This document shows positions 1 through 18,077 of a DNA stretch of 20,910 nucleotides, in pieces. The DNA is from a virus. Position 1 is the first letter of the stretch. Each line of letters opens with the position of its first letter. The stretch is taken from positions 1 through 20,910 of IMG/VR virus record IMGVR_UViG_3300008459_008028; one strand, 5' to 3'. The position numbers and the translations under genes are program-made. The notes beneath the pieces are model-generated. The model did no database searches, was not told where the DNA came from, and saw only the letters and a list, made by a program, of their open reading frames with translations.

Positions 1-651
1 GGCACTTTTTCTATAGGAGATTATGGAACATATACTGATCAATCATATCAAATAACATTAGATGATGGTAGAGTAGTAAGGGTTATTCCTAATTATGATC
101 TTAGTAAAACTACTACTGTACAACCTGTAGGTGAAAAGTTTGCTATTAAAAAAATCACAAAAGAAATAGAAGGTAAACTTAGAGAAGTATTAGCTATTTA
201 TAGATTTGATAAAGATGGTAATATTAAATCTCAAAATTTTGGATATGTAAGAGAAAATACACCTTCTAAAGAGTTTAAATCTGAAACTGTAACTCTTGAA
301 TCTATAAATAAAAATATTAATGTTGATAATTTAACTATTGCTAAGGAAAGAGGCTATGAGGTATTATATACTCCTTTTGGTCAAGTAACTCCAAACCCTT
401 ATAAAATTAGTAAAATCAACAAAAAAACTGTAACTTTATCTTCTCCGATATCAGGTGATGTAACTATAAAAATTGAAGATTTATCAACTGTTATACAAGG
501 GGTTGTAGATCCTAAATCTATAAATGTAACTACTGAGGATAATGATACTATACTTGAAAATAAAAAATCAATAGTTCAAAATCAAACAGTATACAACAAC
601 AAGCTTACTAAAGAAGAAGCTAAAAATAACTTTATAAACAAATTGTGTTAA
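1..651 (+). CDS. C-terminal part of an unidentified, probably virion-associated protein (5' end outside window)
   Basis: The reading frame is open from the first base to a TAA stop, giving 216 visible residues; the start lies outside the window. I do not recognise the family. The visible part alternates short beta-like stretches rich in Val, Thr and Ile with Gly, Asn and Asp turns, and ends in a Lys/Asn-rich tail. It has no membrane segment and no catalytic motif I can name. Its only cysteine is the very last residue. It is followed after six bases by the giant RNA polymerase gene, which is in the same reading frame, so the two are probably co-transcribed. By position it is likely another cargo or structural protein; it could also be the end of a further RNA polymerase-related subunit. 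The existence of the CDS is well supported; the function is not. Confidence 0.8.
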   Translation, partial: GTFSIGDYGTYTDQSYQITLDDGRVVRVIPNYDLSKTTTVQPVGEKFAIKKITKEIEGKLREVLAIYRFDKDGNIKSQNFGYVRENTPSKEFKSETVTLESINKNINVDNLTIAKERGYEVLYTPFGQVTPNPYKISKINKKTVTLSSPISGDVTIKIEDLSTVIQGVVDPKSINVTTEDNDTILENKKSIVQNQTVYNNKLTKEEAKNNFINKLC

Positions 652-657
652 AATATT

Positions 658-3600
658 ATGGTTTGTAATCTTGAACAACAAAAAGACTTAAAAAAAGCTT
701 TAGAAGAATATGTAAATGTTTTAATGCTGGAAGGTATTAAGACAAAACCATTTAATTATCTGGGTATTATAAAAGAAATTTATGATGCTGCTTATAGTAA
801 AAATAAAGATCAAGTACAGGCTTTAGGTGTGGCATATCATGTACCACAAATAATGACTAATTTGTTTAAAATAAATCCTGATCTAGACATGATGAGTTTA
901 GACGGGAAAGATTTAGATGGTATTAAAGATCTTATTCAAAAAGTAAATAGTCAAAATGGGTTGGATCTTTTAGCTAAAGAATTAAAAATTATATCTATTC
1001 CTATATCACAAATAGAAGAAGAGATTGCTAATCAACCTAAAGATTCAGTTATTCCTATAGAAACTATTACATCTGCAAAAGAACTTTTTATTGATAGATT
1101 ATTATTCCCAAGTGAAATAAATAAAACTATTGGTCAACAGTTACTTAGAGTAAATGGTATTCCTTCTCAAGATCAAACAAACCCTAAAGCAAATTTACAT
1201 CATAATGTAGTAAATAAATTATTAGGTTCTGTTAAAGATTTTCAACCAGACTTTACAGAAGTTACTTATGAAGGACATACTGGGTTTAGATTGCTGGCAA
1301 TAAAAGAAAATCAATTACCTAATCTTGAAAGAAATCTTTATTTGAATGAGCAACCTACAAATTTTGTAGTATTAGCTCTTGTAGATAATAAAGGTAACTT
1401 TCTTTACTTTAAAGAAGATGGTACTCTTGGTGATGCAAGTAATGGTACTATAGTTCATTTTTTAATGAAAGCTTCTTCTAAAGAAGAAGAACAATCTATT
1501 AAAGACAGATTGTTTAATGAAAAACAAACTGAAATAACAAATATAGTAGATAGTGATACAAGTTTAACTTCTGAAGAAAAAGAAGCTGTTAAAACTGAAA
1601 AGTTTAAAGATTTAGTTTCTTATATAGATAAGTTATATAAAGAAAAAGAAGATTTTGTAAAACAAATAGTAGAAGAAACTAATACTGAACCTGTACTTTT
1701 AGATATAAACAGTGGTAGCACTGGTTATTATAAAAATACAAATGATATGACTCCTGCTCAAAGAAAAGCAACACAAGCTTATCTTTCTGAGTTTAATCTT
1801 ACACCGGTAGAAAAAGCAAGTATTGAATTTACTACAATAGTAAAAGGTAATAAAAGTATAGTATTACCTACTATAAAATTTGAAGATTCAGACTCAAGAG
1901 TATCTTTAAAAAATCCTGAAAAACTTAGTACTGATTCTGATGTATTAAATAATATTGTAAGTGTTTTAGTTGATGATCCAAAGCTTTTAGGTATTCCTTT
2001 ATCAGCTATGGATAAACTAGATTATATAAAACAGTTTTTACATATAGAAGAAAACTCTGGATTTATTCTTACTAAAGATGTATTAAGTGTTAATGGTAAA
2101 ATATTAGATATTGTAAATAATAAGGAAGAAGCTAGAGAAATTCTAAAAAGTTTCTTTGGTAACAATTTCCTTACTATTATGGAAAAACCTTACAATGATA
2201 ATAAATTAAGATGGATCACTGTTACATCTACTGGTGAAATAACTGAAGATAGTAGAAATTACTATGATTTTATTTTCCAAAGAATTATGCCTAGAGTTGC
2301 TATGGATAAAACTGTAGGAAGAAAAGGTAGACCAATGATTGTTAATTCTTATTTAGGATATAAAAGAATAAATGAGAAAAAACAAGTAGAACAAGAAGTT
2401 AAAGAAACTATAGAAAAAGTTGATGAAAATCCTGATTTATTTGGAGGAATTGACTTTGATATAAATTCTGCAGCATTCAGATCAAAACTTTTAGAAACCA
2501 TACCTACAACAGCTGAACAAGAAGAAAGAGCTAAAAAGTTTTTAGAAGAAAGCCCTTTATTTAAAGCTGTTGATGAAAGTGGTAAACCATTAATTACAAC
2601 TGACTTTAGTAGAACAATTGTAAATTCTGATGCATTTGGTATGTTTTCTAATGCAGCTGTTACATTGTTTTCTGGAGCAAGTTATACTCATGGTTATCAT
2701 GAAGCATGGCATGTATTTAGTCAATTATATTTATCAAAAGGTGATAGAGATAGATTGTATAACCGTGTTTCTAAACTTGATGGTTCATTTGAAGTAGTTA
2801 AAGGAACCGGTGGTCAAGGAGGTAACAACTTTGAAAAAGTAACAGTAAAGTTTAGTGATCTTAACCCTAACTTTCCTCAAGACAGATTATTACTAGAAGA
2901 ATTTATAGCAGAAGAGTTTAGATTATTTGCTATAAATAATGGTAAGTTTAAAACCAAAAATGCTAAAACTAATATTCTAAGTAAAATCTTTAATAGAATT
3001 TGGGCTTTACTTAAACAGTTTTTTGGTAGTGCTGATGCAACTACTGTATATTCTAATCCTGGTTCTGAGACTGTTCTTAATGAAATGTTCAATACTTTGT
3101 ATAGAGCTAAGACACAAGATCAAATAAGCCGTATAGCTCCTAATCTTAAAAATGCTGAGTTTGGAAGATTAAACTCTGGTATTATAGCAGAAGATGGGGC
3201 ACCTTTGTTTAACTATCAAGAAGCTATAGAGTTAAGCAATAGTATTGATGGTATTATATCTTTATATACAGATAGAGTAATTCAAGAACAAAAAGCAAAA
3301 GGTGTTATTGCTAATGGATATGTTATTACAGCTATAACAAGTCCTAAAAATCAAGATCATATTTATAATGTTGTTGTTAAAACAGCTTTTCAAAATAAGC
3401 TTAAACAACACATGGCTTATGTAGAAAAAAATAAAGAAAATAAAAATGATCCTTTCTTAGATGTTTACAAAAGAAATATTGATATTTTAAGTAGAGCTCT
3501 AAAATCAGAAATATTTGGTGATATAACAGAAATAATAAAAGGTAATGCAAAAGGTAATTCTGTTGTTGCATTCCATAGAGAAAATTCTGCATTTAAAGAT

Positions 3601-6600
3601 TTAGGTTTAGTAAAAGATTATGATATTGAAATAGATAATTTAGATTCTAAAAAAGCAGAAGCTGATGAAACTTACTCAAACAAGGGTCCTAATGAGAAAA
3701 AATCTGAAGATATAGCCACAAATGAAACTTTATTTCTTGTTAAAAGTTTACTCAAAAAAAACCCTGATGGTTCTAATATAGAAAATGCTTTAGGATTTCC
3801 TGAAACTGTAGATTTTATTCCTACATGGAGAGTATTAACTAATAAATTAGGTGGTCAAACAACACCGACAGGCTTATATAATAAAATGATAAAAGCCCGT
3901 GATATGAAGATTGCTCCATATTTTGATCAATTATTGCTCAAAGTTGGTAATCCTGCTGAAGTAATGTCTACATCTGAAAATGCAGCTAATATGTGGATTA
4001 GTTTATGGCAATCTTTAAATCTTTACAACATGCCTATCTTAGCTACACAATTTGTAGAAGATAGAGATGAAAATGGAGAAGTATCTGTGAAAATAAAAGT
4101 AGGTAAAACTACTGCAGAATACTTTAAAATTAAAAGAAGAGATTGGCCATCTAAGTTTGCTCAGGAAACATCATCTCCTTATATCAAAGTAAATACTGAA
4201 ACAAAAGCTAATGAATTAAATTTACCAGCTATTAAGAAAGCTTTTTTAGTAGAAACATTTGGTGCTGATGGTTTATTATCTTATACAGTAAACAGTAAAG
4301 AAAACTGGATACCTTTTTTAAATAGTATTGGATTATATCTAACTAATAATTATGATATAAATCAAACATTACAAGAAGAAGATGTAAAATATATAGCACA
4401 AGCCATAGGTCTTGCTGAATATAATAAACTAAACATTGAAGCTCCAATAGATTTCCTAAGTAGATTTCACAAGTTTAAATCATTAAATAGATTTAATCAG
4501 GTTGTAGATATAAATTATAACTCATCTGTTGGTAGAGTTGATGCTATTGCTAGTCTTGAGGCTCAGTATTCAGATCAATATACCGGCAGTATGGTAAGAG
4601 CTTCTTCTGATAATTTAAAAGCAACAACTGCTCTTAACAGCACATACACTAAAATCATAAATTCTATTAATGAAGTTATGTTTAAAGGTGATATGTTTGA
4701 TAATACATTGTTAGGTGATTATGCTCATTTATATTATCTAAATCCAGAATTTAATCCTCAAGCAAAAGCTTCTATCTTTTTAAACTCATTATTTAAAACA
4801 GATGGAACAAAAGATCAAGATAACTCAATAGAGGTATTTGATGTTGATGGTAGCAAATATGTGACTGAAGATTTTGAATCTAATGGTGTACCTTATGGTA
4901 AAATGACCAAACTAGACAAAGTTATTACTGACATGACTAGTATGATGTTTTATGGTGTTCAAGAAGGTACAACAAGAGCTGCAGGAAAGAAAACATATTT
5001 AGGTGTAAAAATAAAAGAAATAAAAACTTATGATGGTAAAAAGACTAATCATTTGTTTATAGATACTGAGTTATTCTTAAAAAATGCTTCAGGAGATTAT
5101 ATTACCCAAGGCAATGTTAATACAAAAATATTACAACTGGTTTATCCTAAACTTGAAGCAGAAATCAAAAGAATAAAAATGGTTAAAGATGATCCGACTT
5201 ACTATAAAACATATAAAGGTTTTGAAAAAGCTGATCAATTTGCAATGTTTGATGATGTTTTAGAGCAAGATGTTGATAAAGAAAAATCATTAAAACAAAG
5301 ATTAACAACTACTGAATTTTTAAATGCTGTTGCTGAGAAAGGATTAATAACTACTCTAAATGAGAATGAAGTATTAAGAGATGAACTAAATAAACAAGTT
5401 CTTGAATATTTTTCTAGATTAAAGAAAAGATATGAAAAGCAATATGTTAAAGCTGTTAAATCTGCAAAACTTCAAAGAAATGGAGAAGCATTATTACCAG
5501 AAGCTATTAAAGAAGCTTTAAAAGAAAGATTTATTTCTAATAAAGTAATAAAAAAAGCACAGTTAGATTCTTTAGGTGAAAGTTCTGATATACTTCTTAA
5601 AAATGCATTTTTCTCATCTTATACTATTAACTCTTGGTTATACAAAGCTGAAGTAGGAACAATTATTCATACAGATCACTTTCAGTTTAATCATGCTAAA
5701 AATGAAGGTCCTAAAAGGATTGCTCCTTACCAATCACCAGGTACTATTTTTGCAACAGGTTCATTAGCTAATAATTATGCTAATACTTATGCTAAAAGAG
5801 AGTATGAGCAAAAATTAATGGATGAGAATAAAATAGCTAAAAAAGATATTAGAAAACATACTAGTATATTTAATACAGCTATCATAAAAGAATCTGAAGT
5901 AAGATCTGCATATTATGAAATGTATGAAGATATGTTCAGAAAGTCAATGATAAGAAGAGGTATTACAGACGAGGCTGCTATTAAAAAAGAATTATATGGA
6001 CCAGATGGTTTAGATAAAAACGGTAATCCTACAGGTGGTAGGATGGCTCCTTTTGCTAAAATTAAAGATGCTGATGGTCAAGGTTTTGTTAGTTTTGATG
6101 CATACAGAATTCTTAAAAAATTAGAATCAGATTGGAGTCCTGAACAAGAAGCTGCATATCAAGATGTTATAAAAGGTAAACAAGTATCTGCAGATGAGAT
6201 AAAAGGTTTATTTCCAGTATACAAATTAGGTTATGCCGGTCCGTTAGCTATTACAGGTAGATATCCAATAAACAGTATTCATAAGTTTAGTTTGATGCCT
6301 TTGACTCCTAGTATGCTTGAATACGGAAATAAAAAAGCTGTGCTACAGGACATTCATTTAAAAATGATTGAACAAGGTATTGATTATATCACATTTGAAT
6401 CAGGTTCAAAACAATCACATATTAGATCCTCAGAAAATCTTAATGGTGATGATATATATGAAGGAAATGATACAAGTAGACTAAAAGAAAATTTTACATT
6501 TACTGTAAATCCTATATTTCTTGCTTATCTTAAAAATCAAACTAAAGTAAATAGTTATTTTAAAGGAGAATCTACTTTAGCATCTCAGTTACGTAAACTA

Positions 6601-9600
6601 TTTAATGTTAGTTTATACAGTGAAGGAGATCCTAAAAAACAGATATTTAAAGAAAAAACTGACAAGGTATTTAGTCTTATTGATAGAATAGTAAAAGTTA
6701 AAAAGGCTGAAATACTAAGAAATTTAAAATTTAAAGAAGTAATTGATCCTAAAACTGGAACTGTTAAACTTGAAGGTGATATTCAAGTAATGCTAGGTTT
6801 TATAAGAAAAGAATTAGAAAAACAAGGTTACAGCAAAACTGAAATTGATCTTATTCAAAGCAATGAAAAAGGTACAGTTGATTTAAGTAGCCACCCTTTA
6901 GCTCCACAAATAGAAAAAAATCTAGTATCTATTATCAACAATAGATTAGTAAGATTAAAAGTAAATGGTGAACCATTAGTTGAAGGATCTTCTGCATTTT
7001 TTCAAGATGTAAAATTTAAAAAACCTACAGAAAAAGACTTAAATAATTATGGAACTAATGGTTTAAGATCTTATGTAGTAGACCCTGATGGTAAAGTTGA
7101 CACAAAAGGTATGGGTGTAGCTATTGCTTTAAATGAAGATTATCAAAAGCTTTTCTTTACTAAATATTTTACCAAAGATGAAAAAGGTAATTATATAGAT
7201 TCTAAAGAAATAATTGCTGTTTATAAAAAGAATGAAAAAGGTGATAGAGAATTAGACTTTGATGCAAGTTTCAATAGGCTTAATGAAATGATCAATGTCA
7301 ATGAGTGGTTAAATACAGATGAAAACAGATTAAAAATTAGAATAACAGGTGTTAGGATTCCAGTACAAGGACCTAACTCTGCAGAATTTGCTGAAGTTCA
7401 AAGATTTTTACCACCTATTGCCGGTCCAATTATTATTATTCCTGCAGAAATTGTTGCTAAATCAGGTACTGACTTTGACGTGGATAAACTCACTTCTTAC
7501 TCTAAGTACATATCTAGCAGAGGTACTTTAATTAAAGATAGTTTTAATACTGTTGAGGAGTTAGATGCTCATATAGAAAAGCTTGAAGAAAGTTTTAATA
7601 AAGCTAGGGCTAAAGCTATTAAAGGTGAAATCAAAACTGAAGTAGACAAAAAGAATCTTACTTGGACTACTATTAAAGATGATCTTAGTGATTTCAGAAA
7701 AGCTGTAACTGATGTTGCTCAAACTAAGTACTTAGGAAAAGAACAGTATAATTCTTTAACTCAAAAAAATACTAGAAAATTATTAGAAAATCTTTCTGAT
7801 AAAAATCTAATGGACTTTGTTAAAAATAATATACCTGAAGCATATAAAATATACAATCAAAAACTTAAAGACTTTAATATTACTGAGTTAAATAAAGTTG
7901 AAGAAACTATATCTAATTTATATAAAGAAAAAAATGATTTAGCTAAAACAGCTATAGAACTTTCTTTAGCAAAAGAGCATAAAAGAAACTTTTCTAAAGT
8001 TATTGAGAATGATTTAATTGATGCTATAACTGATGTCCTTTCTTTACCAGATATGGCCGAAGTATTATTGACACCAAATGATACTCATTTAACTAAATAC
8101 ATAACTGAAGATGCTCCAGGTCAAAAAGGATTAAAATCATTAGTTCAAGAACTAGATGATGAAACAGACTATGAAAAGTCTATTATGACTGGTAAAAGAA
8201 ATGCTCCAAAAGGAATTAGTGCTACCAGAATGTTAGAGCAAGATTTTAATACAGATAAACAACAAGCTAGTATTGCTGGTGGTCAAGGTCTAGGTATTGT
8301 TGCTGTAGGTGGTACTAATAGTAACCAATTCCGTATTTATGGAACTAAGCTTAAAAAGTCAATGCCTGTGGTAATAAAAATACTTACTCGGACTAAAGCT
8401 GGTAAAAATGTGATTGAAGAAAAAATTGTTGATTTTCCTATTGGTTTAAAGTTAAAGCATAATAAAACTTCTGATGGTGCTATTTCTTTATCTAAAGATA
8501 GAGATTATAATAATGAAAACAGTGTTGCTGAAATTATTTCTCAGTTGTTAAATGGATTTGTTGATATTGATAAAGATGAATGGGTAGCTTATTTGCAAGG
8601 TAATCCTACTGTTACACCTAAAATTTTGTTTTTAGTTGATGCAGGAGTGCCTTTTGAACACATAGCATATTTTGTTTCTAATCCTATGGTTAGAGAATAT
8701 GTTTCTTTAGAAAATAGTTATAAATCTCCACTATCTAAATTAGTATTTGGTAAAGATCATGATTCAAGTGGGTCTAATGCTAAAAATTTAGCTAAGAAAT
8801 ATATGATGAGATCTATAAATGTACCAAGTGCTGAATATACTAATAATAAAGATAATGTACACGGTTTACAATATGCTTTAAATTTTTATCATAAAGGAGC
8901 TTTTACATTAGATGAATTAAAAAGTATAGCTTCTAGCAGACTTAATTTTGCTGATCAATCTCAAAAAGCTGGATTTTTACAATATCTTCTTATTGAAGAA
9001 TTGATGAAGGATTATGATTTATTAAAAATGACTTTAAATCCTGATACAACTACTTCACCAAACATGTTTGAGGCTAAGATAAAATCAAGAGCTATAGCTA
9101 GATTAAAAGATTCTAAAACTGTTTCTCAAGAAGATGTAAATAATCTTGTTAATGGAGGTGCTCTTAAACCATTTCAAGTTCAAGATTTTACTATTGAATT
9201 GTTTGGAAGACTGTTTCCTACTAGAAATCATCCTAAGGTAATTGACTTTTTAACTAATGCTGTAGAAAATAGAACACTATTTAGTAGTATAGAAAAAGCT
9301 ACTGGTTTAGATGAAGAAAAATATGTAATAAGATTTTTAAATTCTTTATATCAGTATGTATTTATCAATACTCTTAAAAACTACAGATCTGGTGATACAA
9401 TGTATAAACAAATTCCTGTAGATCAGTTAGTTAACATTGAACAACTTAAAAATGATTATGATAATAAAGAATATGCTAAAAACTATATAGAAAGAGGATT
9501 ATATCCTGTTCCTTTAGCTGCTTTTGAAGATGCTACATTTGAAGAGTTTGTTGAGTTTAGCTTAGAAAGAGAATATTTAAGAAGAATGTATCCAATAGAT

Positions 9601-11253
9601 TCTGTGGTTAATACTACTAGCTATAAAAGATCTTATGCTGCTTTAAAAAATATTAATAATCCTGCATTTTCTACAGAAGACGGATTAAAGAAGTATGCTT
9701 ATGAAAACATTTTAAAGAATAAAGCATTAAATAATATTTATAATACATTCAAATTATTTAGATCTGGAAAAGATACTGTGGCTCAAGAACTTATAAATAT
9801 TATTAATGATAACCCTGCTCTTGCTAAAAAGTATTCTGTTATATCTAAATTTAAAGCTAGTGTAGTACCTAATGATGTAAAACAAAAGTATAAAGGTATA
9901 TTAAACTTTACTCTTACTGATATATCAGATGTTACAGATATTAGGGATGAGAATGGTAAAAAGAAAAGAGAAGATTATAGAAGACAAATGAGTGAACTTG
10001 CTGATCCTAGTTTTATTAAAGTAGCAAACAGTCCTCAAAATAATGCTTATATAAGTAGCTTTTTTGAAAAGTTACCGTTATATGCTTTCTTACAATCAGG
10101 TATGAACCCAAGTGAGTTTAACTTAATGTCAATCATGCCTTATGGAAACTATAATAGAATAATGGATGTTGCTGTCAATAACCTAAAAAAATTATTAGAT
10201 AGTGATAATGCAGATAAATTTTTAGCCGGTTTTAATGAATTCTTTAAAGCTAGATACAATTCTAAAAATTCTACTTTAATAAATAGAGGTGTAAACTGGA
10301 GAATGAATATGCAAGATGTTATTAATCTTAAACAATCTAATGCATTGAATATAAACAACTTACCATTTATAACAAATGTAAAAGGTAATGTTTATGTTTT
10401 AGATGATAACTCTCAAACATTTAAAGATTTAGCTAAAGATTATGAAAAGAAAAGTGATTTTATCTATGATGTAAAAAACAACAATCTAGATTCTATCATT
10501 ATTTCTTCTTTATCAGATTTGAACTATAGATTTCCAGGTATGTCTTTTGAGCAAATCAATGCTGCTAAAACTGATATTGATTCTGCTATTTCTAATATCA
10601 AGTCTTTAGAGGATAGTGGTAAAAATATTGTGTTCTTATCATCTATATTTGATCAAGCTAAACTTACTACTACTCAACTAGGTAAACCATATTTTACTGA
10701 AGAAAAAGCTTTAGCTCAAAAAACTTTTAGAAAAAAACCTCTTTTGTTCCAACAAATTGAATCAACTAGAGATAAACCTGTAGGAGCAAGAAACATTGGT
10801 AATGCTATTTTACTAAATATTTCACTTTTGAAACAAAAATATGCTGAAAAAGCTTGGACTAAATCTGCAGTATTAAATGATAAAAGTTCTGCTACACCTC
10901 TTGCTGAAAATGAGTTTACATCATTTGATGAATTTTTTACTTTTGTTCTTCTTCATGAATTAGGTCATGACTTTATTAAACAAGCTGAAGGAGAAACCAA
11001 AGGATTATTAGAAGATAGAATAAATAAAGCTGCTTTAGCTGAACTAAGAAAGAATTATAGTAAATCCACTACTCAACCTATAGTACAAACTGGTGATCCT
11101 ATAAAACAAATAACAGCTATCTATAATAAATTAACTGATGAACAAAAGAAAAAAGTTGGTACCTTAGAGAGCATACTTGATAAATATAATGAACTACCAT
11201 TTGATTTAACAGTCGAACAATTTGTAGATCAAACAATTAATTGTAAATTATAA
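658..11253 (+). CDS. giant crAss-like phage RNA polymerase polyprotein with two zincin-like metalloprotease motifs
   Basis: This 3531-residue protein probably transcribes early phage genes after delivery with the DNA, the role known for virion RNA polymerases of crAss-like phages. The catalytic loop DFDVD (2272-2276) is the DxDxD triad that binds Mg2+ in the beta'-type double-psi barrel. It follows a stretch from R2233 (RIPVQGP) resembling the beta' 'NRAPTLHR' region. An upstream block with HKFSLMPLTP (1875-1884) and ESGSK (1914-1918) probably forms the beta-like barrel with its lysines, and a Gly-rich segment (2541-2551) may belong to the bridge or trigger region. HEAWH (681-685), followed by EEFIAEE (747-753), looks like a gluzincin site. 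HELGH (3433-3437) near the C-terminus is a second one. The first ~600 residues and the region between core and second zincin are unassigned. The only cysteines are residues 3 and 3529. ATG at 658 is six bases after the previous stop. Polymerase assignment is strong; proteolytic activity is inferred. Confidence 0.9.
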   Translation: MVCNLEQQKDLKKALEEYVNVLMLEGIKTKPFNYLGIIKEIYDAAYSKNKDQVQALGVAYHVPQIMTNLFKINPDLDMMSLDGKDLDGIKDLIQKVNSQNGLDLLAKELKIISIPISQIEEEIANQPKDSVIPIETITSAKELFIDRLLFPSEINKTIGQQLLRVNGIPSQDQTNPKANLHHNVVNKLLGSVKDFQPDFTEVTYEGHTGFRLLAIKENQLPNLERNLYLNEQPTNFVVLALVDNKGNFLYFKEDGTLGDASNGTIVHFLMKASSKEEEQSIKDRLFNEKQTEITNIVDSDTSLTSEEKEAVKTEKFKDLVSYIDKLYKEKEDFVKQIVEETNTEPVLLDINSGSTGYYKNTNDMTPAQRKATQAYLSEFNLTPVEKASIEFTTIVKGNKSIVLPTIKFEDSDSRVSLKNPEKLSTDSDVLNNIVSVLVDDPKLLGIPLSAMDKLDYIKQFLHIEENSGFILTKDVLSVNGKILDIVNNKEEAREILKSFFGNNFLTIMEKPYNDNKLRWITVTSTGEITEDSRNYYDFIFQRIMPRVAMDKTVGRKGRPMIVNSYLGYKRINEKKQVEQEVKETIEKVDENPDLFGGIDFDINSAAFRSKLLETIPTTAEQEERAKKFLEESPLFKAVDESGKPLITTDFSRTIVNSDAFGMFSNAAVTLFSGASYTHGYHEAWHVFSQLYLSKGDRDRLYNRVSKLDGSFEVVKGTGGQGGNNFEKVTVKFSDLNPNFPQDRLLLEEFIAEEFRLFAINNGKFKTKNAKTNILSKIFNRIWALLKQFFGSADATTVYSNPGSETVLNEMFNTLYRAKTQDQISRIAPNLKNAEFGRLNSGIIAEDGAPLFNYQEAIELSNSIDGIISLYTDRVIQEQKAKGVIANGYVITAITSPKNQDHIYNVVVKTAFQNKLKQHMAYVEKNKENKNDPFLDVYKRNIDILSRALKSEIFGDITEIIKGNAKGNSVVAFHRENSAFKDLGLVKDYDIEIDNLDSKKAEADETYSNKGPNEKKSEDIATNETLFLVKSLLKKNPDGSNIENALGFPETVDFIPTWRVLTNKLGGQTTPTGLYNKMIKARDMKIAPYFDQLLLKVGNPAEVMSTSENAANMWISLWQSLNLYNMPILATQFVEDRDENGEVSVKIKVGKTTAEYFKIKRRDWPSKFAQETSSPYIKVNTETKANELNLPAIKKAFLVETFGADGLLSYTVNSKENWIPFLNSIGLYLTNNYDINQTLQEEDVKYIAQAIGLAEYNKLNIEAPIDFLSRFHKFKSLNRFNQVVDINYNSSVGRVDAIASLEAQYSDQYTGSMVRASSDNLKATTALNSTYTKIINSINEVMFKGDMFDNTLLGDYAHLYYLNPEFNPQAKASIFLNSLFKTDGTKDQDNSIEVFDVDGSKYVTEDFESNGVPYGKMTKLDKVITDMTSMMFYGVQEGTTRAAGKKTYLGVKIKEIKTYDGKKTNHLFIDTELFLKNASGDYITQGNVNTKILQLVYPKLEAEIKRIKMVKDDPTYYKTYKGFEKADQFAMFDDVLEQDVDKEKSLKQRLTTTEFLNAVAEKGLITTLNENEVLRDELNKQVLEYFSRLKKRYEKQYVKAVKSAKLQRNGEALLPEAIKEALKERFISNKVIKKAQLDSLGESSDILLKNAFFSSYTINSWLYKAEVGTIIHTDHFQFNHAKNEGPKRIAPYQSPGTIFATGSLANNYANTYAKREYEQKLMDENKIAKKDIRKHTSIFNTAIIKESEVRSAYYEMYEDMFRKSMIRRGITDEAAIKKELYGPDGLDKNGNPTGGRMAPFAKIKDADGQGFVSFDAYRILKKLESDWSPEQEAAYQDVIKGKQVSADEIKGLFPVYKLGYAGPLAITGRYPINSIHKFSLMPLTPSMLEYGNKKAVLQDIHLKMIEQGIDYITFESGSKQSHIRSSENLNGDDIYEGNDTSRLKENFTFTVNPIFLAYLKNQTKVNSYFKGESTLASQLRKLFNVSLYSEGDPKKQIFKEKTDKVFSLIDRIVKVKKAEILRNLKFKEVIDPKTGTVKLEGDIQVMLGFIRKELEKQGYSKTEIDLIQSNEKGTVDLSSHPLAPQIEKNLVSIINNRLVRLKVNGEPLVEGSSAFFQDVKFKKPTEKDLNNYGTNGLRSYVVDPDGKVDTKGMGVAIALNEDYQKLFFTKYFTKDEKGNYIDSKEIIAVYKKNEKGDRELDFDASFNRLNEMINVNEWLNTDENRLKIRITGVRIPVQGPNSAEFAEVQRFLPPIAGPIIIIPAEIVAKSGTDFDVDKLTSYSKYISSRGTLIKDSFNTVEELDAHIEKLEESFNKARAKAIKGEIKTEVDKKNLTWTTIKDDLSDFRKAVTDVAQTKYLGKEQYNSLTQKNTRKLLENLSDKNLMDFVKNNIPEAYKIYNQKLKDFNITELNKVEETISNLYKEKNDLAKTAIELSLAKEHKRNFSKVIENDLIDAITDVLSLPDMAEVLLTPNDTHLTKYITEDAPGQKGLKSLVQELDDETDYEKSIMTGKRNAPKGISATRMLEQDFNTDKQQASIAGGQGLGIVAVGGTNSNQFRIYGTKLKKSMPVVIKILTRTKAGKNVIEEKIVDFPIGLKLKHNKTSDGAISLSKDRDYNNENSVAEIISQLLNGFVDIDKDEWVAYLQGNPTVTPKILFLVDAGVPFEHIAYFVSNPMVREYVSLENSYKSPLSKLVFGKDHDSSGSNAKNLAKKYMMRSINVPSAEYTNNKDNVHGLQYALNFYHKGAFTLDELKSIASSRLNFADQSQKAGFLQYLLIEELMKDYDLLKMTLNPDTTTSPNMFEAKIKSRAIARLKDSKTVSQEDVNNLVNGGALKPFQVQDFTIELFGRLFPTRNHPKVIDFLTNAVENRTLFSSIEKATGLDEEKYVIRFLNSLYQYVFINTLKNYRSGDTMYKQIPVDQLVNIEQLKNDYDNKEYAKNYIERGLYPVPLAAFEDATFEEFVEFSLEREYLRRMYPIDSVVNTTSYKRSYAALKNINNPAFSTEDGLKKYAYENILKNKALNNIYNTFKLFRSGKDTVAQELINIINDNPALAKKYSVISKFKASVVPNDVKQKYKGILNFTLTDISDVTDIRDENGKKKREDYRRQMSELADPSFIKVANSPQNNAYISSFFEKLPLYAFLQSGMNPSEFNLMSIMPYGNYNRIMDVAVNNLKKLLDSDNADKFLAGFNEFFKARYNSKNSTLINRGVNWRMNMQDVINLKQSNALNINNLPFITNVKGNVYVLDDNSQTFKDLAKDYEKKSDFIYDVKNNNLDSIIISSLSDLNYRFPGMSFEQINAAKTDIDSAISNIKSLEDSGKNIVFLSSIFDQAKLTTTQLGKPYFTEEKALAQKTFRKKPLLFQQIESTRDKPVGARNIGNAILLNISLLKQKYAEKAWTKSAVLNDKSSATPLAENEFTSFDEFFTFVLLHELGHDFIKQAEGETKGLLEDRINKAALAELRKNYSKSTTQPIVQTGDPIKQITAIYNKLTDEQKKKVGTLESILDKYNELPFDLTVEQFVDQTINCKL

Positions 11254-11258
11254 GTACT

Positions 11259-12050
11259 ATGACTTGTATAAATAAATCAACTAAGGAGTATAAAAACTTA
11301 GAAAAAAGATATGGAAGCACTATTGCTGAAGGCTTAATAAGAAGATATAATCAGGGTAAACCAGACTCTGATTATATCCCTACTGTAAGTGAAGCCAAAA
11401 ATTTTTTATTAAATATTAATAAAAACAAACTACAGAAAATACAAAGAGGTCTCAAAGCCAACCAATATCTTACTGAAAGAGGTATTCTAGATTATTTACA
11501 GGGAGTTCTTGCTAAATCTAATGATAAAATTTTTATAGTAAAAGGATGGAATGTTGGTATGAGTGTTAAAACTGCCAATAGGAAAGAGATCTTTGAGCCT
11601 AATCTTAAAATAATGCAAGAAATTGCAACTCAATATCCTGATATTTTTAAGTTAAAAAATACTACAATTGAAGATGTTATTATTGTAGAAATTAATCCTA
11701 GACAATCACCATCTTTACTGATAAGTAAACCACAAATAGGTATTCAAAAAACTATAGATTTTACTACACCAGAAGAAGAATATGAAACAGAAGACCTTTC
11801 TAAAGAAGAAGACATAGAAAGACGTAAAGAAGGTAGCTGGACTATGGATGAAGAAGGTAACATCATTCCTTTTACTGAAGAGGAATCCTCTACAAACCAA
11901 GAATTATCAATATATTTGTCTAACAAACTTAATGATGCTTTTGGAATAAGTGATCCTAGTGTTACAGGAGCTCCATCTATAGATGACATTGTAAACAAAC
12001 ATATTTCACCATCAGAAGAAGATATTAACAACAAAAAAAGCGAATGTTAA
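11259..12050 (+). CDS. small protein of unknown function between two giant virion proteins
   Basis: A 263-residue protein, starting five bases after the giant polymerase gene and ending one base before the next giant gene, so almost certainly part of the same transcript. I do not recognise a catalytic family. Residues 1-55 form a short helical module with the pattern Cys3, Glu10-Tyr11, Leu14-Glu15, Gly19, then a Tyr-Ile-Pro turn. A related pattern with identical spacing opens the next protein. Residues 70-165 look like a mixed alpha/beta domain. The C-terminal 90 residues are strongly acidic and low in complexity (many Glu, Asp, Ser), probably disordered. The only two cysteines are residue 3 and the last residue, 263. 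It may be an adaptor or scaffold linking the two giants, which is inference from position and termini. Confidence 0.85.
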   Translation: MTCINKSTKEYKNLEKRYGSTIAEGLIRRYNQGKPDSDYIPTVSEAKNFLLNINKNKLQKIQRGLKANQYLTERGILDYLQGVLAKSNDKIFIVKGWNVGMSVKTANRKEIFEPNLKIMQEIATQYPDIFKLKNTTIEDVIIVEINPRQSPSLLISKPQIGIQKTIDFTTPEEEYETEDLSKEEDIERRKEGSWTMDEEGNIIPFTEEESSTNQELSIYLSNKLNDAFGISDPSVTGAPSIDDIVNKHISPSEEDINNKKSEC

Positions 12051-12051
12051 A

Positions 12052-15000
12052 ATGAAAGGATCTTGTCCTCTTAAAACTGCCCCAGACTGGTTAGCTCTAG
12101 AAAATACTATAGGTGAAAATAATACTTGGAAAGTATGGATGTCATCTAGAGAAGATGTTTTACCTGAGCCTGTTGCCGGGGCATTTTTTCTATTTACTGA
12201 AGCTGAACCTATAAAAGCAGCTGCTTTACTTAATAAATATGTTCCATTAGTTAAAAGACAAAAGTATGATTATAGCACTACTCTTCTTGACATGATAAAT
12301 GATGCTCAAGAAGGTATGTTTAATGAAGATGTTTATAAACAATGGCTTGCAAATAATGATTATTTAGATAAATTGTTTCAAGGAGAAATTATAAAAAGAA
12401 CTGAGGAAGAAAAAGAAATTGCTGCTAAAAGATTCCAAACTCTTGAAGAATTGGCTAATGAAGTACCAGAAGAATTTGTAGAACCAATAACAGCTATTGA
12501 TTTACAAAACAAGATGAGAAAAGATGAATTTCTCTACAAGTTTGGTGAAAATTTAGGTAGGGATTTTATAATTGTAACAACCCAAGAAGCTAATAATATT
12601 TTAACAAAAACTGCTACTCCTTATCAAGGACAATCTGTATTTATCATCAATAACAAAATACATTTAGTTGAGGATAAAATATCATTGAATAGCAACTTTG
12701 CTGATATTGCTTTACCTTTAATTCATACTTTAAGACTAAATGCTAAAGATACTTTTAATGCTATTTATGAAAGATTTCTTAAAACTCCACAAGCAGCTGA
12801 TATTCAAGAGATTATAAATGATAAATATCCAACAATAATAAATAAAGATTCTGATTTATATAAAGAATTAGTTTTAGCTGAATCTCTTAAATATTATGCA
12901 TCAGTAAAAAATGCTGGTACTAATGTTAATGCAGGTCTTATGAGTGAAGCATTTGATGCTTTTATAAAGAATAATCTGATGTATCACATCAAACAAAGAA
13001 TAAGAAAACAATTTGGAACTGTAAAAGTAGAAAAGCTTACTCCTAATGATAGTGTTTCATCTTTTGTTAAAATGGTAGAGAATGAAAACTTTAAACTTGA
13101 AAATGAAGAAGTTAATGCAGAAACTATAAATTCTTATAATAATGAATTAGAAAAAGCTGCAAAAGAAATTACTGATGCTATAAAAACTGCAGAAGCTGAA
13201 AGTAAACTTATGGGTGTTATTGATAATTTTATAATGTTCAATGATAGACAATTAAGACTTACAAAAGCAAAACCTTACTGGGATATAAAAAAGGTTATTG
13301 CTGATGAAGAAGCAGGTGGATATTTAAGAGATATTGCTGAGAGATTAAAAGATGTAGATCCTTCTAAAGTAAAAAACTATGCTGATCTTACTCTTTCTTT
13401 TAGAACTAAAGCATTAATAAATTCTCTATTTACATTAGATAAAACTCTTACTGAAATTAATAAGTATTTAGAAACCATTGCAGCAAGTAATGCTAAACCT
13501 GTAGACAAACTAAAAGATGTAGCTTATGCTCATGATTTATTAAAACAATGGGGTGATTTCATTGATCAAACTGAAAGAGCAATGATTGAAGCTGGTATTC
13601 CCAAAGATAGTTATGTTTTTAGATTTGTTGCTACATTAGATGCTTCTGTTAAAAAAGGTAAAGAAACTTTTGTTACTATACAAGAAGATGGTGCTGTAAA
13701 ATCTACTACAGATTTACTTAACTATTTTTCAGAAAATATAACAAAGAATATTGATGAAGAAATCAAAAGGCTAGAAGAAATGCCTGCTGATTCTTATAGA
13801 GATAAGCTTATAAAAGAACTAAAAGAAAAAAAGAAGAAATATACATTTGATGAGGATAAAATAAAAAAATTGTATACTGGTGAACTTGGTGACTCTAATT
13901 TTTGGAGTACAATGTTTGAGAGTTATACTACAAATCCTGATCCTATTCTTTCAACTTTTGCTTTATTCTTAAAGAAACATACATCAGATATTACAGCTAA
14001 TGCTTTCTTAAGATCTAGAAAATTTTCTGAGACTATTCAGCCTCTTATGGAGTCTTTAGGTATTACAGGGAATGATCCTAGAAAAGAGTTTGCTGAATAT
14101 ATTATAACAGATACAAAAGCCGGAAGAGATGAAAACGGTAGACTAACTAAACAAGCTGTATTATCTTTAATGGCACCAACAACTAGTGGTAGGTATGAAG
14201 TTGCCATGCTAGAGCAAGATATTGAAGATGCTAAAAAGGCTAATGATCCAGAAAAGTTAAAAGAAGCTTATAAGAAAAAAGAAGAATTCTTAAATAAATA
14301 CTTTAATAGAGAATATGTTAAGTCATATTATGAAGACAGAAAAGTTCTTGAAAATGAGAACTATGATGCTTTCATGAAGTTAGAAGAAATAAATCTTGAG
14401 ATAAAAAAGTTTAGAGCTGATAATCCTAATGAACTAGATACATTTGAAAACAATAGTATACTAGATAATTTATTAAAACAGAGAGAAAGACTTTACTCTA
14501 TTTTTGATGAGAATGGAAATCTTAAAGATCAAAAAGACCAAAAAATAGCAAGGGATTTAACTGCTCATAGAAAAAGAATGGGTAAGTATTATGATGCTAT
14601 TCCTAAAAAAGGTCAGTTTCAAAGAGAATTTGAAGCTTTTTCTAATTTGTTAGCTACAGATCCTAGATATTCTAACATAGCAAAATATAATCCTGATGGT
14701 ACTTTAACTGATGAGTTTAAAGATTTACAATATAAATGGTTAAAACAAAACAGTAGAGTAAAATATACACAAGCTTATTATGATAGACAAGCTGAATTAT
14801 ATGATACTTTAGCTGAATTATCTAAAGATTTACCTGATGAATATAAAGTAGATGCACTTTATAAAGAAAGAACAGCTATTTTATCTGGATATAAAGATTC
14901 TTATGGTCAGACTGATCCTTCTAAAATGGCCAATAGAGCTAAAATTTTAGAAAAGCTTAAGAATATTCAAGAAAAAATTAATGATATTCAGTTTAAATCT

Positions 15001-17640
15001 CAAAATGATCAGATTAATCTTAGTACAGCTACTAAACTTAGAATAAAAGAAGTTTTAAAAGAACTTGCTGAATTGCAGTTTAAAGAGCCTACTGAGTATT
15101 ACATGGATGAATTAAACCAAAATCTAATTGCTATTAATGCTAAACCTAGAAAATTAGATGAGGCTGATTCACTTCTTAGTGATATTAAATTATTAGAAGG
15201 TACTTTACTTAAAAAACCATCATTTGCTAAATGGTTTAATGAAAATCATGTAAAAAGATATTACATGACTTCAGATGGTACAAAGAAATACAAATATGAA
15301 AGACTAAATGCTTGGAGTGTTGTTATTCCTATTGAAAAAAATCCTGATGTTCCTTATATAGAAAAAACTAAAGTTAAGTTTGAAGGACAAACCTATGAAA
15401 TAAATGGTATTCCTAGTTCTAGATTTTTCTTTTTCAAAATAAAAGATGAATTTAAAACCATCAAGCCTAACATGACTAAAGAAGAAAAAGCTCAGTTTGT
15501 TAATAACAGGGGTGAATATCTTCCTTTAAGTAAAGAACAAGGAGCACCTCAAGATTCTCCATTTATAAATCATGCTTATTATGAAATTATCAAAGATTCT
15601 AAAAAAGCTGCTTTACTAAAAGCCTTTACAGAATATCATGTTGATAATCAAATAGGTCTTGATAAATCTCAAAAACTATATTTAGATATTCCAAGATTTC
15701 CTATTAAAGATAATCTTGAAAGATTAAGAACAGGTAGACCTTTAAAAAGATGGGTTGATAGAATAAAAAGTGTGGGTAGAGGTATGGCTGCTACTCTTAG
15801 TGGTAAGTCTAGAGAAGAAGCTAATATAGAATCTAGGGAAGAAATTGATGTTGAAGATGAATTAGGCAATGTTCAGTTTGAAGAAGATTATGAAAAACTA
15901 GCAATGGCTAAAAATGCTTTATTAGATCCTGTTGTAGATAAAATTCCTATGAGAGGTTTATCTAATATTCCTATTGAAGAAGTGTCTTATGATCTTATAA
16001 CATCTTTTAATTTGTACATGCTTCAGGCTGAAAAACAAAGAGTATTTAATGAAATATCTCCAGTTGCCCAGGCTATGATGAATACACTAGAAAATTTAGA
16101 TGAAGCAGCAAGAGAACTTGATAAAATTAGAAACAAACAAGGTACTATGAGAGATAGTGTAAAAGCTTTGTTTGGTAATAAAGGTACAAGTAATAGAGTT
16201 GCTGGTTTTAAAGCTCTTTATAACCGAGAATTTAAAGGTAAGGTCTTTGATGAAAAACATCTTGATTGGATTAATAAAGTAACTGCTGGTATTACAAAAG
16301 GAGCATCTATTAATTACTTTGCATTAAACTTACCATCTGCTGTAAAAAACTACTGGGGTATTCTTTGGCAGTTAAATGTTGAAGCAACAGCTGGTGAATA
16401 TTTTGACTTTGTCTCTATGGGTAAAGGTAAAATAAGAAGTAAGACAGCAATGAATGAATGGACTACTAGAATATGGGGTGGTAACTATAATACATTAGAT
16501 ACTCAACTCATAATGCTTATGGATCCATTACAAGGTAAAGCAGATGAAAGTTTGGGTAAAGATGCATCAAGAACTTTTGCTAAAGATCTAGCTAGTTTAA
16601 GTTTTGTGTATAGCCCTAGAAAATTCATGGAGATGGAAGGTGGTTTACAGCTATTCTATTCTATGATGTATCATAAACAAATTCCAAGAATTGTAAATGG
16701 TGTAGAAACTAGTATAGCTTATGCAGATGCTTTTGAATTAGATAAGTCTGGTAAGATGGTTCTAAAAGAAGGTGTAGATGCTACTTATGGAATCACTTAT
16801 GAAGTAGATGAAAACGGTCAAGAAAAAGCTGTATTAGGTAAAGAGTTTGTAAAAATGCAAAATGCTGTACATGAGAAGTTTAAAGATCTCAATGGTGCTT
16901 TTGCTAAATTTGAACAACCTCAAGCTCAAGCTTTTTTTGCTTATAGGTTATTTGCTTTCATGAGAAGATACTTTACAAGTATGTTTATGAACAGATTTGG
17001 TAAAGACCGTGCAAACTTTGCATTAGGTACTATAAGAGCAGGATATTATGTAGAAGCTACAATTGCTATAGCAAAAACAATAGCTACATTAGGTAAACAT
17101 ATAAAATATCTTCAAAAATCTGAAAAAAGAGCAATGGCTAGAATGCTTATGGATGCTGCACAAATATTAATAGTATCTATGGTAGCTTCTCTATTGTTTG
17201 GTTATGATGATGATGATGAAGATAGATTTGAAAAATTAAGAGCTAAATCTGGTGCATTAGGGGAAGATGATTTTGAATTAACAGGGTGGTTATCAAACCA
17301 TGCTCTTACTCTAATGCTAAAAACACAAGCTGAAAACCAAAGTTTTATACCACTACCAGGAGTAGGTTTGAATAACTATCTTGATTTAACAAGTTCAACA
17401 TCACTTGCCTTTGGTCCAACTATTACATCTTATTCTAAAATATTAACTGATATTGCCCTACATGCTATGCCTGGTGAAAATGAAGATTTATTTTACAAAA
17501 AAGATACAGGTCCTTATGAGTGGCAAAAAGAAGGAGAAGCTAAAATATGGAACCATTTAGGAACAATGTTAGGTTTCTCTGGAAGTCAAGTAGATCCTGT
17601 TAAAGGTTTACAATCTTTTGAAACATTTAGTAGACAATAA
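12052..17640 (+). CDS. giant helical virion cargo protein (1862 aa), polyvalent-protein type, function unknown
   Basis: This 1862-residue, mostly helical protein is the last gene of the plus-strand block. The N-terminal module (Cys5, Asp12-Trp13, Leu16-Glu17, Gly21) matches the spacing at the start of the preceding 263-residue protein. The middle (about 330-1100) is rich in Lys, Glu and Leu, with likely coiled coils. The C-terminal third is more hydrophobic and aromatic, with an Arg/Phe-rich stretch (about 1640-1660), a hydrophobic helix (1702-1718) and then an acidic run DDDDED (1719-1724). Such C-terminal regions occur in large phage proteins delivered with DNA, where a membrane role has been proposed; here that is inference. 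I see no nuclease, lysozyme or polymerase motif. Its only cysteine is residue 5. ATG at 12052 is one base after the previous stop, which fits translational coupling. A terminator hairpin follows four bases after its stop. Confidence 0.9.
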   Translation: MKGSCPLKTAPDWLALENTIGENNTWKVWMSSREDVLPEPVAGAFFLFTEAEPIKAAALLNKYVPLVKRQKYDYSTTLLDMINDAQEGMFNEDVYKQWLANNDYLDKLFQGEIIKRTEEEKEIAAKRFQTLEELANEVPEEFVEPITAIDLQNKMRKDEFLYKFGENLGRDFIIVTTQEANNILTKTATPYQGQSVFIINNKIHLVEDKISLNSNFADIALPLIHTLRLNAKDTFNAIYERFLKTPQAADIQEIINDKYPTIINKDSDLYKELVLAESLKYYASVKNAGTNVNAGLMSEAFDAFIKNNLMYHIKQRIRKQFGTVKVEKLTPNDSVSSFVKMVENENFKLENEEVNAETINSYNNELEKAAKEITDAIKTAEAESKLMGVIDNFIMFNDRQLRLTKAKPYWDIKKVIADEEAGGYLRDIAERLKDVDPSKVKNYADLTLSFRTKALINSLFTLDKTLTEINKYLETIAASNAKPVDKLKDVAYAHDLLKQWGDFIDQTERAMIEAGIPKDSYVFRFVATLDASVKKGKETFVTIQEDGAVKSTTDLLNYFSENITKNIDEEIKRLEEMPADSYRDKLIKELKEKKKKYTFDEDKIKKLYTGELGDSNFWSTMFESYTTNPDPILSTFALFLKKHTSDITANAFLRSRKFSETIQPLMESLGITGNDPRKEFAEYIITDTKAGRDENGRLTKQAVLSLMAPTTSGRYEVAMLEQDIEDAKKANDPEKLKEAYKKKEEFLNKYFNREYVKSYYEDRKVLENENYDAFMKLEEINLEIKKFRADNPNELDTFENNSILDNLLKQRERLYSIFDENGNLKDQKDQKIARDLTAHRKRMGKYYDAIPKKGQFQREFEAFSNLLATDPRYSNIAKYNPDGTLTDEFKDLQYKWLKQNSRVKYTQAYYDRQAELYDTLAELSKDLPDEYKVDALYKERTAILSGYKDSYGQTDPSKMANRAKILEKLKNIQEKINDIQFKSQNDQINLSTATKLRIKEVLKELAELQFKEPTEYYMDELNQNLIAINAKPRKLDEADSLLSDIKLLEGTLLKKPSFAKWFNENHVKRYYMTSDGTKKYKYERLNAWSVVIPIEKNPDVPYIEKTKVKFEGQTYEINGIPSSRFFFFKIKDEFKTIKPNMTKEEKAQFVNNRGEYLPLSKEQGAPQDSPFINHAYYEIIKDSKKAALLKAFTEYHVDNQIGLDKSQKLYLDIPRFPIKDNLERLRTGRPLKRWVDRIKSVGRGMAATLSGKSREEANIESREEIDVEDELGNVQFEEDYEKLAMAKNALLDPVVDKIPMRGLSNIPIEEVSYDLITSFNLYMLQAEKQRVFNEISPVAQAMMNTLENLDEAARELDKIRNKQGTMRDSVKALFGNKGTSNRVAGFKALYNREFKGKVFDEKHLDWINKVTAGITKGASINYFALNLPSAVKNYWGILWQLNVEATAGEYFDFVSMGKGKIRSKTAMNEWTTRIWGGNYNTLDTQLIMLMDPLQGKADESLGKDASRTFAKDLASLSFVYSPRKFMEMEGGLQLFYSMMYHKQIPRIVNGVETSIAYADAFELDKSGKMVLKEGVDATYGITYEVDENGQEKAVLGKEFVKMQNAVHEKFKDLNGAFAKFEQPQAQAFFAYRLFAFMRRYFTSMFMNRFGKDRANFALGTIRAGYYVEATIAIAKTIATLGKHIKYLQKSEKRAMARMLMDAAQILIVSMVASLLFGYDDDDEDRFEKLRAKSGALGEDDFELTGWLSNHALTLMLKTQAENQSFIPLPGVGLNNYLDLTSSTSLAFGPTITSYSKILTDIALHAMPGENEDLFYKKDTGPYEWQKEGEAKIWNHLGTMLGFSGSQVDPVKGLQSFETFSRQ

Positions 17641-17678: not shown

Positions 17679-18077
17679 TTAGTTATCAGCAAGGGATGCA
17701 ATAACTATTTTACTGAGATCTGGTTTAAAGTATCTACTACTTTTAAGTATTTTACCATCCTCTCTAAAAATAGGGTTTCCATTTTCATCCAGTTTACTCA
17801 TATTACTTCTGTGTATTTCATCAAATACATCTTCAATAATATTTTGCATACCATGTTTTAAAATAGTACCACATAGAATATATAGTTGATCTCCTAATGC
17901 ATCAGCTATATCTACAAGATTATTTGCAGCACATGCCTCAAGATATTCTTCATTTTCTTCTTTCATTAATTTGAATCTTAAATCATAAGAGTCAACATCT
18001 ATTAATCTTGGTTTTTCTCCATCTTGTTGTAAAAAAGCTTTATGAAAAGCAGCTACAGATTTTAAAGGTTTTTCCAT
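17679..18077 (-). CDS. MazG-like / phosphoribosyl-ATP pyrophosphohydrolase-like NTP pyrophosphatase
   Basis: A 132-residue all-helical protein of the MazG / PRA-PH type, which hydrolyses nucleoside triphosphates or related compounds to monophosphate and pyrophosphate. The Mg2+-binding pattern is visible: EENEE at 40-44 (EExxE), then D56, D59 and D63 in DIADALGD for the second acidic helix. The C-terminal stretch with SNMSKL (about 91-96), a DGK turn and a hydrophobic end is typical of the PRA-PH-like phage and Bacteroidota members. Length is normal for a single-domain enzyme. It is the last gene of the minus-strand replication block and probably adjusts the nucleotide pool during phage DNA synthesis; the true substrate cannot be read from sequence. 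The start ATG is preceded by an almost pure A-run, a plausible Bacteroidota-type initiation context. Two cysteines, both internal. Confidence 0.88.
   Translation of the reverse strand: MEKPLKSVAAFHKAFLQQDGEKPRLIDVDSYDLRFKLMKEENEEYLEACAANNLVDIADALGDQLYILCGTILKHGMQNIIEDVFDEIHRSNMSKLDENGNPIFREDGKILKSSRYFKPDLSKIVIASLADN

Follow-up and report, generated by a model that had tools for sequence, protein, structure and literature searches.

Viruses of the crAss-like group are among the most abundant in the human gut, and the closest described counterparts of the proteins considered here are the crassviral virion RNA polymerase (RNAP) and its accompanying cargo, namely the RNAP of the Cellulophaga phage phi14:2 (PDB 6VR4) and gp47, gp50 and gp49 of crAss001. 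According to the available text of the crAss001 structure paper (PMC10172136), gp47, gp49 and gp50 are present in virions, and the tail has constrictions of less than 50 Å, with partial unfolding deduced by its authors. The window studied here, the whole 20,910-nucleotide stretch at positions 1 to 20,910 of IMG/VR virus record IMGVR_UViG_3300008459_008028, encodes on its plus strand four consecutive cargo proteins of this uncultured virus, which we label A, B, C and D from upstream to downstream, among them a DxDxD RNAP (B) with a partner D and a putative partner A, the genes being spaced by 1 to 6 bases. It differs from the phi14:2 and crAss001 cargo by a fourth member, C, and by a shifted break between A and B (hereafter the A/B junction, the others being written likewise). 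The cysteines of these proteins are confined in the window to the ends at which neighbours meet, and this pattern is general across a crassviral sample in which a junction, judged from the sequences, is either a peptide bond or a pair of cysteines, C-end to N-end.

Protein A is cut by the window edge and was completed to 1738 amino acids (aa) from a 60-kb IMG/VR contig (L003:3582-8798) that is 100% identical to the window over B and D. Together with B (3531 aa), C (263 aa) and D (1862 aa), the set amounts to 7394 aa and contains six cysteines, all at junction ends and one per end: the last residue of A, which is residue 216 of the first open reading frame (ORF) as it stands in the window, residues 3 and 3529 of B, residues 3 and 263 (the last) of C, and residue 5 of D. 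These are the positions given in the original prediction, which had noticed the pattern in the window alone and found no cysteine to be internal; the full-length A adds none. Residues within five of any of the eight ends make up about 0.5%, and by arithmetic the chance that six out of six cysteines fall there is about 1 in 10^13 to 10^14. By count, the six minus-strand products hold 2, 0, 0, 3, 1 and 4 cysteines, that is, 10 in 1011 aa, in agreement with the earlier estimate of about ten in about 1,010.

The identity of the members rests on profiles. B bears the polymerase motif TDFDVDK (DxDxD) and matches a crassviral polymerase profile, and D matches a profile of crAss001 gp49-like proteins, both built without the window (E-values in Table 1). 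A gave no match to an A profile trained without the window; its position and lone terminal cysteine agree with the A role, and the N-part of B matches the C-end of crAss001 A. The four proteins (A as its last 216 aa) had no match in PHROGs (E 0.001) and no family in Pfam (E 0.01), nor did B have a match among PDB sequences. A structure prediction of C alone reached a predicted local distance difference test score (pLDDT) of 39 and was not used.

The wider sample was assembled with a DNA pattern for the polymerase motif, blind to cysteine, which retrieved at least 120 stretches from IMG/VR; the first 80, each taken with up to 20 kb around the motif, entered the main count and the other 40 were held out. 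Seven rows were dropped (the 95% copies L178, L217, L166, L214 and L232, the partly masked L236, and L191 with its frameshifted RNAP) and the addition of 23 named genomes, the window among them, gives a main set of 96 genomes or loci, the near-identical crAss001 and cr112_1 both being retained; the 103 rows before dropping fall into 78 clusters at 50% identity. L002, L007 and cr108_1 were described but stand outside the 96, and L017-L024 were unscored. Neighbours of the polymerase were accepted as A or D by profile in the IMG/VR loci and by annotation, size and order in the named genomes, cysteine never being used; membership is nevertheless partly circular, since the training proteins of the A and D profiles had initially been chosen by their place in the same loci. 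An end was scored as bearing a cysteine when one lies within 12 residues of it.

In this sample, terminal cysteines are near-universal at junctions and absent at free ends. Indeed, 242 of 244 junction ends bear one (A C-ends, 47/47; N-ends of B or of fused BD proteins, 55/55; C-ends of B or of fused AB proteins, 71/72; D N-ends, 67/68; ends of C, 2/2), against none of 121 free ends (A N-ends, 0/37; AB or ABD N-ends, 0/27; BD or ABD C-ends, 0/10; D C-ends, 0/47). Where both sides of a junction are scored, both cysteines are found in 47/47 cases for A/B and 66/68 for B/D, the window's C sitting between B and D in the latter count. Both the conservation of junction cysteines as pairs and their lack at the true ends of the series had been anticipated from the window.

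Taking the first ATG of each frame keeps the cysteine at 92 of 93 N-ends in the IMG/VR loci; for ZA, crAss002 and cr110_1, whose annotated B+D start lies 14-32 residues ahead of the ATG giving MSC, the inner ATG was used. The two exceptions among the 244 are displaced cysteines, 29 aa from the end of the AB protein in L220 and at residue 20 of D in L186. Three A proteins encoded apart from B were checked by hand, by size and place, outside the count: the cysteine is penultimate in L161 and last in L158 if the contig is circular, and the last one of L175 lies 51 aa from the end. The dropped L191 conforms to the pattern at the end of A and at the starts of B and D. An earlier automatic sort by distance from the motif, superseded by the profile sort, gave 236/240 junction ends and 3/105 free ends; its misses were the upstream ORF of L158 and the downstream ORF of L203, neither with an A or D profile match, together with L220 and L186, and its free-end cysteines lay in L205 and L223, which have AB proteins with long inserts, and in L173, whose break lies far upstream and whose N-end (with Cys 4) is left unscored. 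In four loci with one TAG read by the standard code, cysteines flank the boundary on both sides, that of L179 being the seventh residue from the end. Furthermore, in 13 of the 80 IMG/VR loci (L167, L170, L172, L174, L188, L194, L204, L205, L211, L219, L220, L224 and L234) the polymerase frame contains between 34 and 124 in-frame TAG codons, as would be expected if TAG encoded an amino acid; these loci retain the cysteine at scored junction ends, displaced in L220.

Scored with these profiles by nearly identical rules, the held-out stretches, four of which were dropped as copies, gave cysteines at 38 of 46 junction ends and at one of 14 free ends. The eight misses and the single free-end cysteine all fall in L121, L151 and L155, each of which has a break inside its polymerase or D gene; in L121 and L155 the true B end and D start keep their cysteine. 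A hand count without the three loci, an exclusion judged after seeing the broken genes, gives 35/35 junction ends. In L155 and L121, as in L005:12882-24472, the polymerase gene is split at or near DxDxD (by an intron, intein or frameshift), and no cysteine pair stands at these mid-gene breaks.

The composition of the tails bears on the chemistry. Cysteine is their sole strongly conserved residue (the next best reaches 0.3-0.5, and the D start has a mild C-P-N preference), and its usual distance from the terminus is 1-4 residues at C-ends and 3-5 at N-ends; the tails are polar in composition. The junction tails of A, B and D hold exactly one cysteine in 239 of 242 cases, two in one and none in two, and compared with free ends they are enriched neither in His (0.89% versus 1.03%) nor in Asp (4.9% versus 7.4%) nor in Glu (7.1% versus 7.9%). 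A single conserved cysteine per tail and the lack of His enrichment argue for thiol chemistry more than for a docking motif or a metal site. Metal sites built from adjoining termini were among the original suggestions: two thiols from adjoining tails could hold an ion of zinc, copper or iron, the link then being one of coordination, and zincin-like HEXXH motifs do occur near the A/B junction in several genomes. However, with one cysteine per tail and no second ligand that stands out by position, such sites are disfavoured and we consider them decidedly unlikely.

Cysteines are also scarce within the proteins. With 12 residues excluded at each end, 553 were counted in 527,391 residues of 212 proteins (0.105%), and 115 of the 212 have none; the complete absence seen in the window therefore does not extend to the whole order, and some members have many (19 per 2505 aa in L158, 23 per 4448 in L202). 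Muzzle-like proteins of eight named genomes contain 0.71% cysteine, and two other cargo proteins, C1 (14 proteins) and C2 (18 proteins), 0.07% and 0.03%, respectively. Three of the 14 C1 proteins (gp45-like, from three Intestiviridae; L026:1737-4124, L014:6490-8763 and L027:456-2129) have a lone cysteine within 11 residues of the C-end, with no partner identified.

The ejected proteins of N4 (vRNAP, gp51 and gp52; L252 9524-22524) have no cysteine in 4294 aa, and those of T7 (gp14, gp15 and gp16; L253 7729-14552) a single one, residue 2 of gp14, in 2261 aa; 14 other N4 proteins, hand-picked, contain 0.86%. Like the crassviral cargo, these proteins are large, pass a narrow tail and are nearly devoid of cysteine, so that cysteine scarcity may be a general trait of ejected proteins, and the earlier idea that internal cysteines are excluded by unfolding becomes plausible. 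Unlike that cargo, they have no terminal cysteine pairs at neighbouring ends, a feature seen solely in the crassviral set and in the Leptolyngbya phage Lbo-JY46. The same comparison bears on whether the pattern is a coincidence of composition, with cysteine-poor proteins tolerating the residue only at floppy ends. The near-absence of cysteine in the N4 and T7 proteins and the polar tails are in keeping with this, but the three N4 ejection proteins lack terminal cysteines and, within the same crassviral proteins, junction ends and free ends differ as 242/244 and 0/121; we give a coincidence almost no credence.

Fusions of neighbouring members provide a further comparison. As the original prediction had foreseen, both cysteines of a junction are missing where its two members are fused, in A+B, B+D, B+C (L007) and A+B+D (L160), and the cysteines of the other junctions stay. 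Thirty AB, 18 BD and one ABD proteins were counted, with no cysteine at 37 scorable free ends; the fused boundary could be located in 13 cases, one of which (L205) has a cysteine within 60 aa. In Suoliviridae and the Flavobacterium phage Fpv1, A+B is one protein of 3,481-4,946 aa with no cysteine at its N-end and one at its C-end, and the D start has one wherever D is in view. In Intestiviridae, B+D is one protein with a cysteine at its start and none at its end, and A ends with a cysteine (three starts were moved to an inner ATG). A single frame of about 5,824 aa in L160:1962-19482 comprises the whole polymerase cargo, A+B+D, with no cysteine near either end; in its relative L175, B+D is fused and has Cys 3. 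The BD fusion of L215, examined in close comparison with L197, L157 and L179, has one cysteine in 3525 aa. L007, whose D is 70% identical to that of the window, fuses B to the C-end of C: the B end and C start are swapped for other sequence, both B/C cysteines are gone, the C/D cysteines are kept, and one internal cysteine (2411) lies away from the lost junction. By eye, the segment between the fused B and C in L007:3-10001 may resemble a 2-oxoglutarate/Fe dioxygenase. By profile, B was recognised in every fusion except that of Lbo-JY46, D in every B+D fusion, and A in four true fusions (L206, L207, L227 and L160); A in the remaining AB fusions was deduced from the approximately 1,400-2,400 aa ahead of the polymerase.

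This alternation of fused and split forms could also suit marks for processing or trans-splicing (protease tags, split inteins or thioester ligation), and the available text of PMC7886860 describes crassviral genomes as having a high density of inteins and introns. Such processing or sorting tags, also raised in the original prediction, fail to explain why both cysteines are absent at fusions; moreover, the upstream proteins stop 0-10 residues past the cysteine, too short for an intein half, and no strong tail motif is shared beyond the cysteine. We attach very little probability to them, and split inteins in particular were rejected on the ground that the proteins end at most 10 residues after the cysteine. 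Homodimers formed through one tail were likewise rejected: an A-B fusion would not call for losing both cysteines.

The position of the A/B break is itself variable. A zincin-like HEXXH lies near the A C-end in crAss001 and Intestiviridae; the window (residue 681), L201 (344) and L186 (542) have it in the N-part of B instead. Furthermore, N-parts of B match the A C-ends of other genomes by BLAST (window with crAss001, 1e-5, over B residues 659-709; L201 with cr112_1, 6e-18; L186 with L202, 2e-29; L161 with L209, 3e-8), so that the A/B gene break has moved. By these alignments, the cysteine pair stands at the moved break, on both sides in the window and on the B side alone for L201 and L186. 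On a polymerase-core tree (90 rows, 550 columns, quick search, with the window on a long branch and of unsure placement), A/B passes from separate to fused or back at least six times (82 rows; five when three long-branch rows are taken out, leaving 79) and B/D at least twice (86 rows, four truncated rows being left out).

Among the named relatives, phi14:2 has a cysteine only at residue 1797 of 1797 in A, at residues 3 and 2179 of 2180 in B, and only at residue 3 in D, and its cargo is present in the virion by tandem mass spectrometry according to the record annotation. In crAss001, A (gp47) has one cysteine, residue 2339 of 2341, B (gp50) has residues 5, 1334 and 2404 of 2412, and the sole cysteine of D (gp49) is residue 5. 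The gene for A lies on the other strand in crAss001, cr128_1, cr112_1 and DAC15, with no change in the cysteine pattern; the series is thus a property of the proteins and not of gene order. The head-to-tail disulfide chain initially proposed fits these comparisons, with the amendment that it would follow the protein series A-B-(C)-D rather than the order of the genes. A DNA-level signal in the start or stop context was rejected: the sequences of the tails are not alike, crAss001 and other genomes encode A on the opposite strand, and none of the 64 N-ends of A and AB has a cysteine. In the cyanobacterial Lbo-JY46, a 1552-aa protein whose sole cysteine is its last residue is followed by a 2748-aa protein whose sole cysteine is residue 4. 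In the latter, D is confirmed by profile and the polymerase is not, neither the B profile nor the polymerase motif having been found; it was therefore classed, with reserve, as a B+D-like fusion.

We consider a covalent thiol tether between the paired ends to be probable, at roughly 0.7. The RNAP cargo would then be one domain string, A-B-(C)-D, threaded partly unfolded through the tail; its members would be made fused in one polypeptide or else separately, then with one cysteine among the last residues of the upstream partner and one among the first residues of the downstream partner. Inside the particle, the two thiols would form a disulfide, and the separate products would act as one unbranched C-to-N chain. 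The disulfide would be a reversible substitute for the peptide bond, the chain would be drawn through the tail in order, and the reducing cytoplasm of the host would open the links and free the polymerase. The part of the chain in ejection is one step less sure than the tether, the threading and the release by reduction being what we infer from it. That the cargo is a reversible polyprotein, concatenated by disulfides, ejected as a string of A, polymerase and D and released in the new host, throughout the order and as far as Lbo-JY46, has in our view somewhat better than even odds; a gene could then be split at various points provided that a cysteine stands on each side. The tail barrel of crAss001 contains disulfides according to the available text of the structure paper (PMC10172136), so that oxidation of thiols does take place in purified particles; the methods of that paper give virion mass-spectrometry data for both a reduced and a non-reduced sample. 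Several genomes have annotated thioredoxin-like genes close to the cargo block, which is only suggestive.

Several points weigh against this disulfide chain. The cytoplasm in which particles assemble is reducing, so that bond formation would have to await packaging or lysis, and a 1:1:1 chain requires equal copy numbers of A, B and D. The many internal cysteines of some members make stray pairing possible, and the disulfide itself we infer from comparison. The cysteine is displaced in L220, L186 and L175, the D start of the dropped, partly masked L236 has none as read, and the eight junction misses and one free-end cysteine of the held-out set remain on the negative side. In addition, most of the crAss001 cargo is unresolved in the cryo-electron microscopy map, in the available text of PMC10172136.

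The pairing facts would fit equally well if the thiols served assembly only, through a transient contact or lock by which equal numbers of A, B and D are packaged together and which plays no part in ejection, and fusion too would fix stoichiometry. This explanation accounts less well than threading for the scarce internal cysteines and the C-to-N order, and, as is generally known, the cytoplasm is reducing during assembly; we regard it as unlikely. Viral polyproteins likewise combine several functions in one chain, and some crassviral lineages encode fusions of 4,000-6,000 aa; viral polyproteins are cleaved, whereas in the proposed chain a reversible bond would join products made separately. 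The disulfides of the crAss001 tail barrel, fibre hubs and portal-vertex protein, in the available text of PMC10172136, are also inter-protein and stabilise a crassviral virion; they join structural subunits, whereas the bonds proposed here would link ejected cargo proteins one after another at their extreme ends. No account of terminal cysteines or of a covalent chain was found in the literature searched, the phi14:2 polymerase paper (Drobysheva 2021) lying outside that search, and the string "cystein" was not found in the available texts of the crAss001 structure paper, the 2021 crAss genome survey, a Crassvirales review, the N4 polymerase preprint, the P23-45 paper and a review of ejection proteins.

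Table 1. Cargo proteins, junction cysteines and motifs in the window
Feature	Position	Strand	Evidence or remark
A, last 216 residues of 1738 aa	1..651	+	Lone Cys is the last residue
A C-terminal Cys, upstream side of A/B junction	646..648	+	Sequence; A C-ends with Cys 47/47
B, 3531 aa, virion RNA polymerase	658..11253	+	DFDVD at residue 2272; HEXXH at residues 681 and 3433; B-profile E 3e-46
B Cys3, downstream side of A/B junction	664..666	+	Sequence
HEAWH zincin-like motif in B	2698..2712	+	Counterpart region near A C-end in crAss001 and Intestiviridae; A/B break differs
DFDVD, RNA polymerase catalytic motif	7471..7485	+	Motif in B
B Cys3529, upstream side of B/C junction	11242..11244	+	Sequence
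C, 263 aa, extra chain member with Cys at both ends	11259..12050	+	C-end fused to B in L007
C Cys3, downstream side of B/C junction	11265..11267	+	Gone along with its partner in L007
C Cys263 (last), upstream side of C/D junction	12045..12047	+	Retained in L007 (3331 of 3332)
D, 1862 aa, crAss001 gp49 homologue, without C-terminal Cys	12052..17640	+	D-profile E 2.5e-31
D Cys5, downstream side of C/D junction	12064..12066	+	Sequence

The minus-strand genes of the window include a PRA-PH (MazG-like) pyrophosphohydrolase (17679-18077) and a GIY-YIG nuclease (19109-19741), and the product of 19786-20781 has a weak match, below the cut-off, to family-B DNA polymerases. The capsid, portal and terminase genes common to Crassvirales lie outside the window.

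The question addressed by these observations is how proteins of 150 kDa and much larger, including a working RNA polymerase, pass through tail constrictions of less than 50 Å and in which order. If the reading preferred here is true, a redox-cleavable, end-to-end covalent string would account for both passage and order, and the bonded residue pairs, with the two proteins that bear each, become sharp and cheap predictions. Such a string would further point to cysteines placed end to end and few inside as a design rule for passing groups of proteins through narrow pores. If true, the reversible polyprotein would be a general rule of the crassviral order and would hold for at least one cyanobacterial phage, Lbo-JY46, as well.

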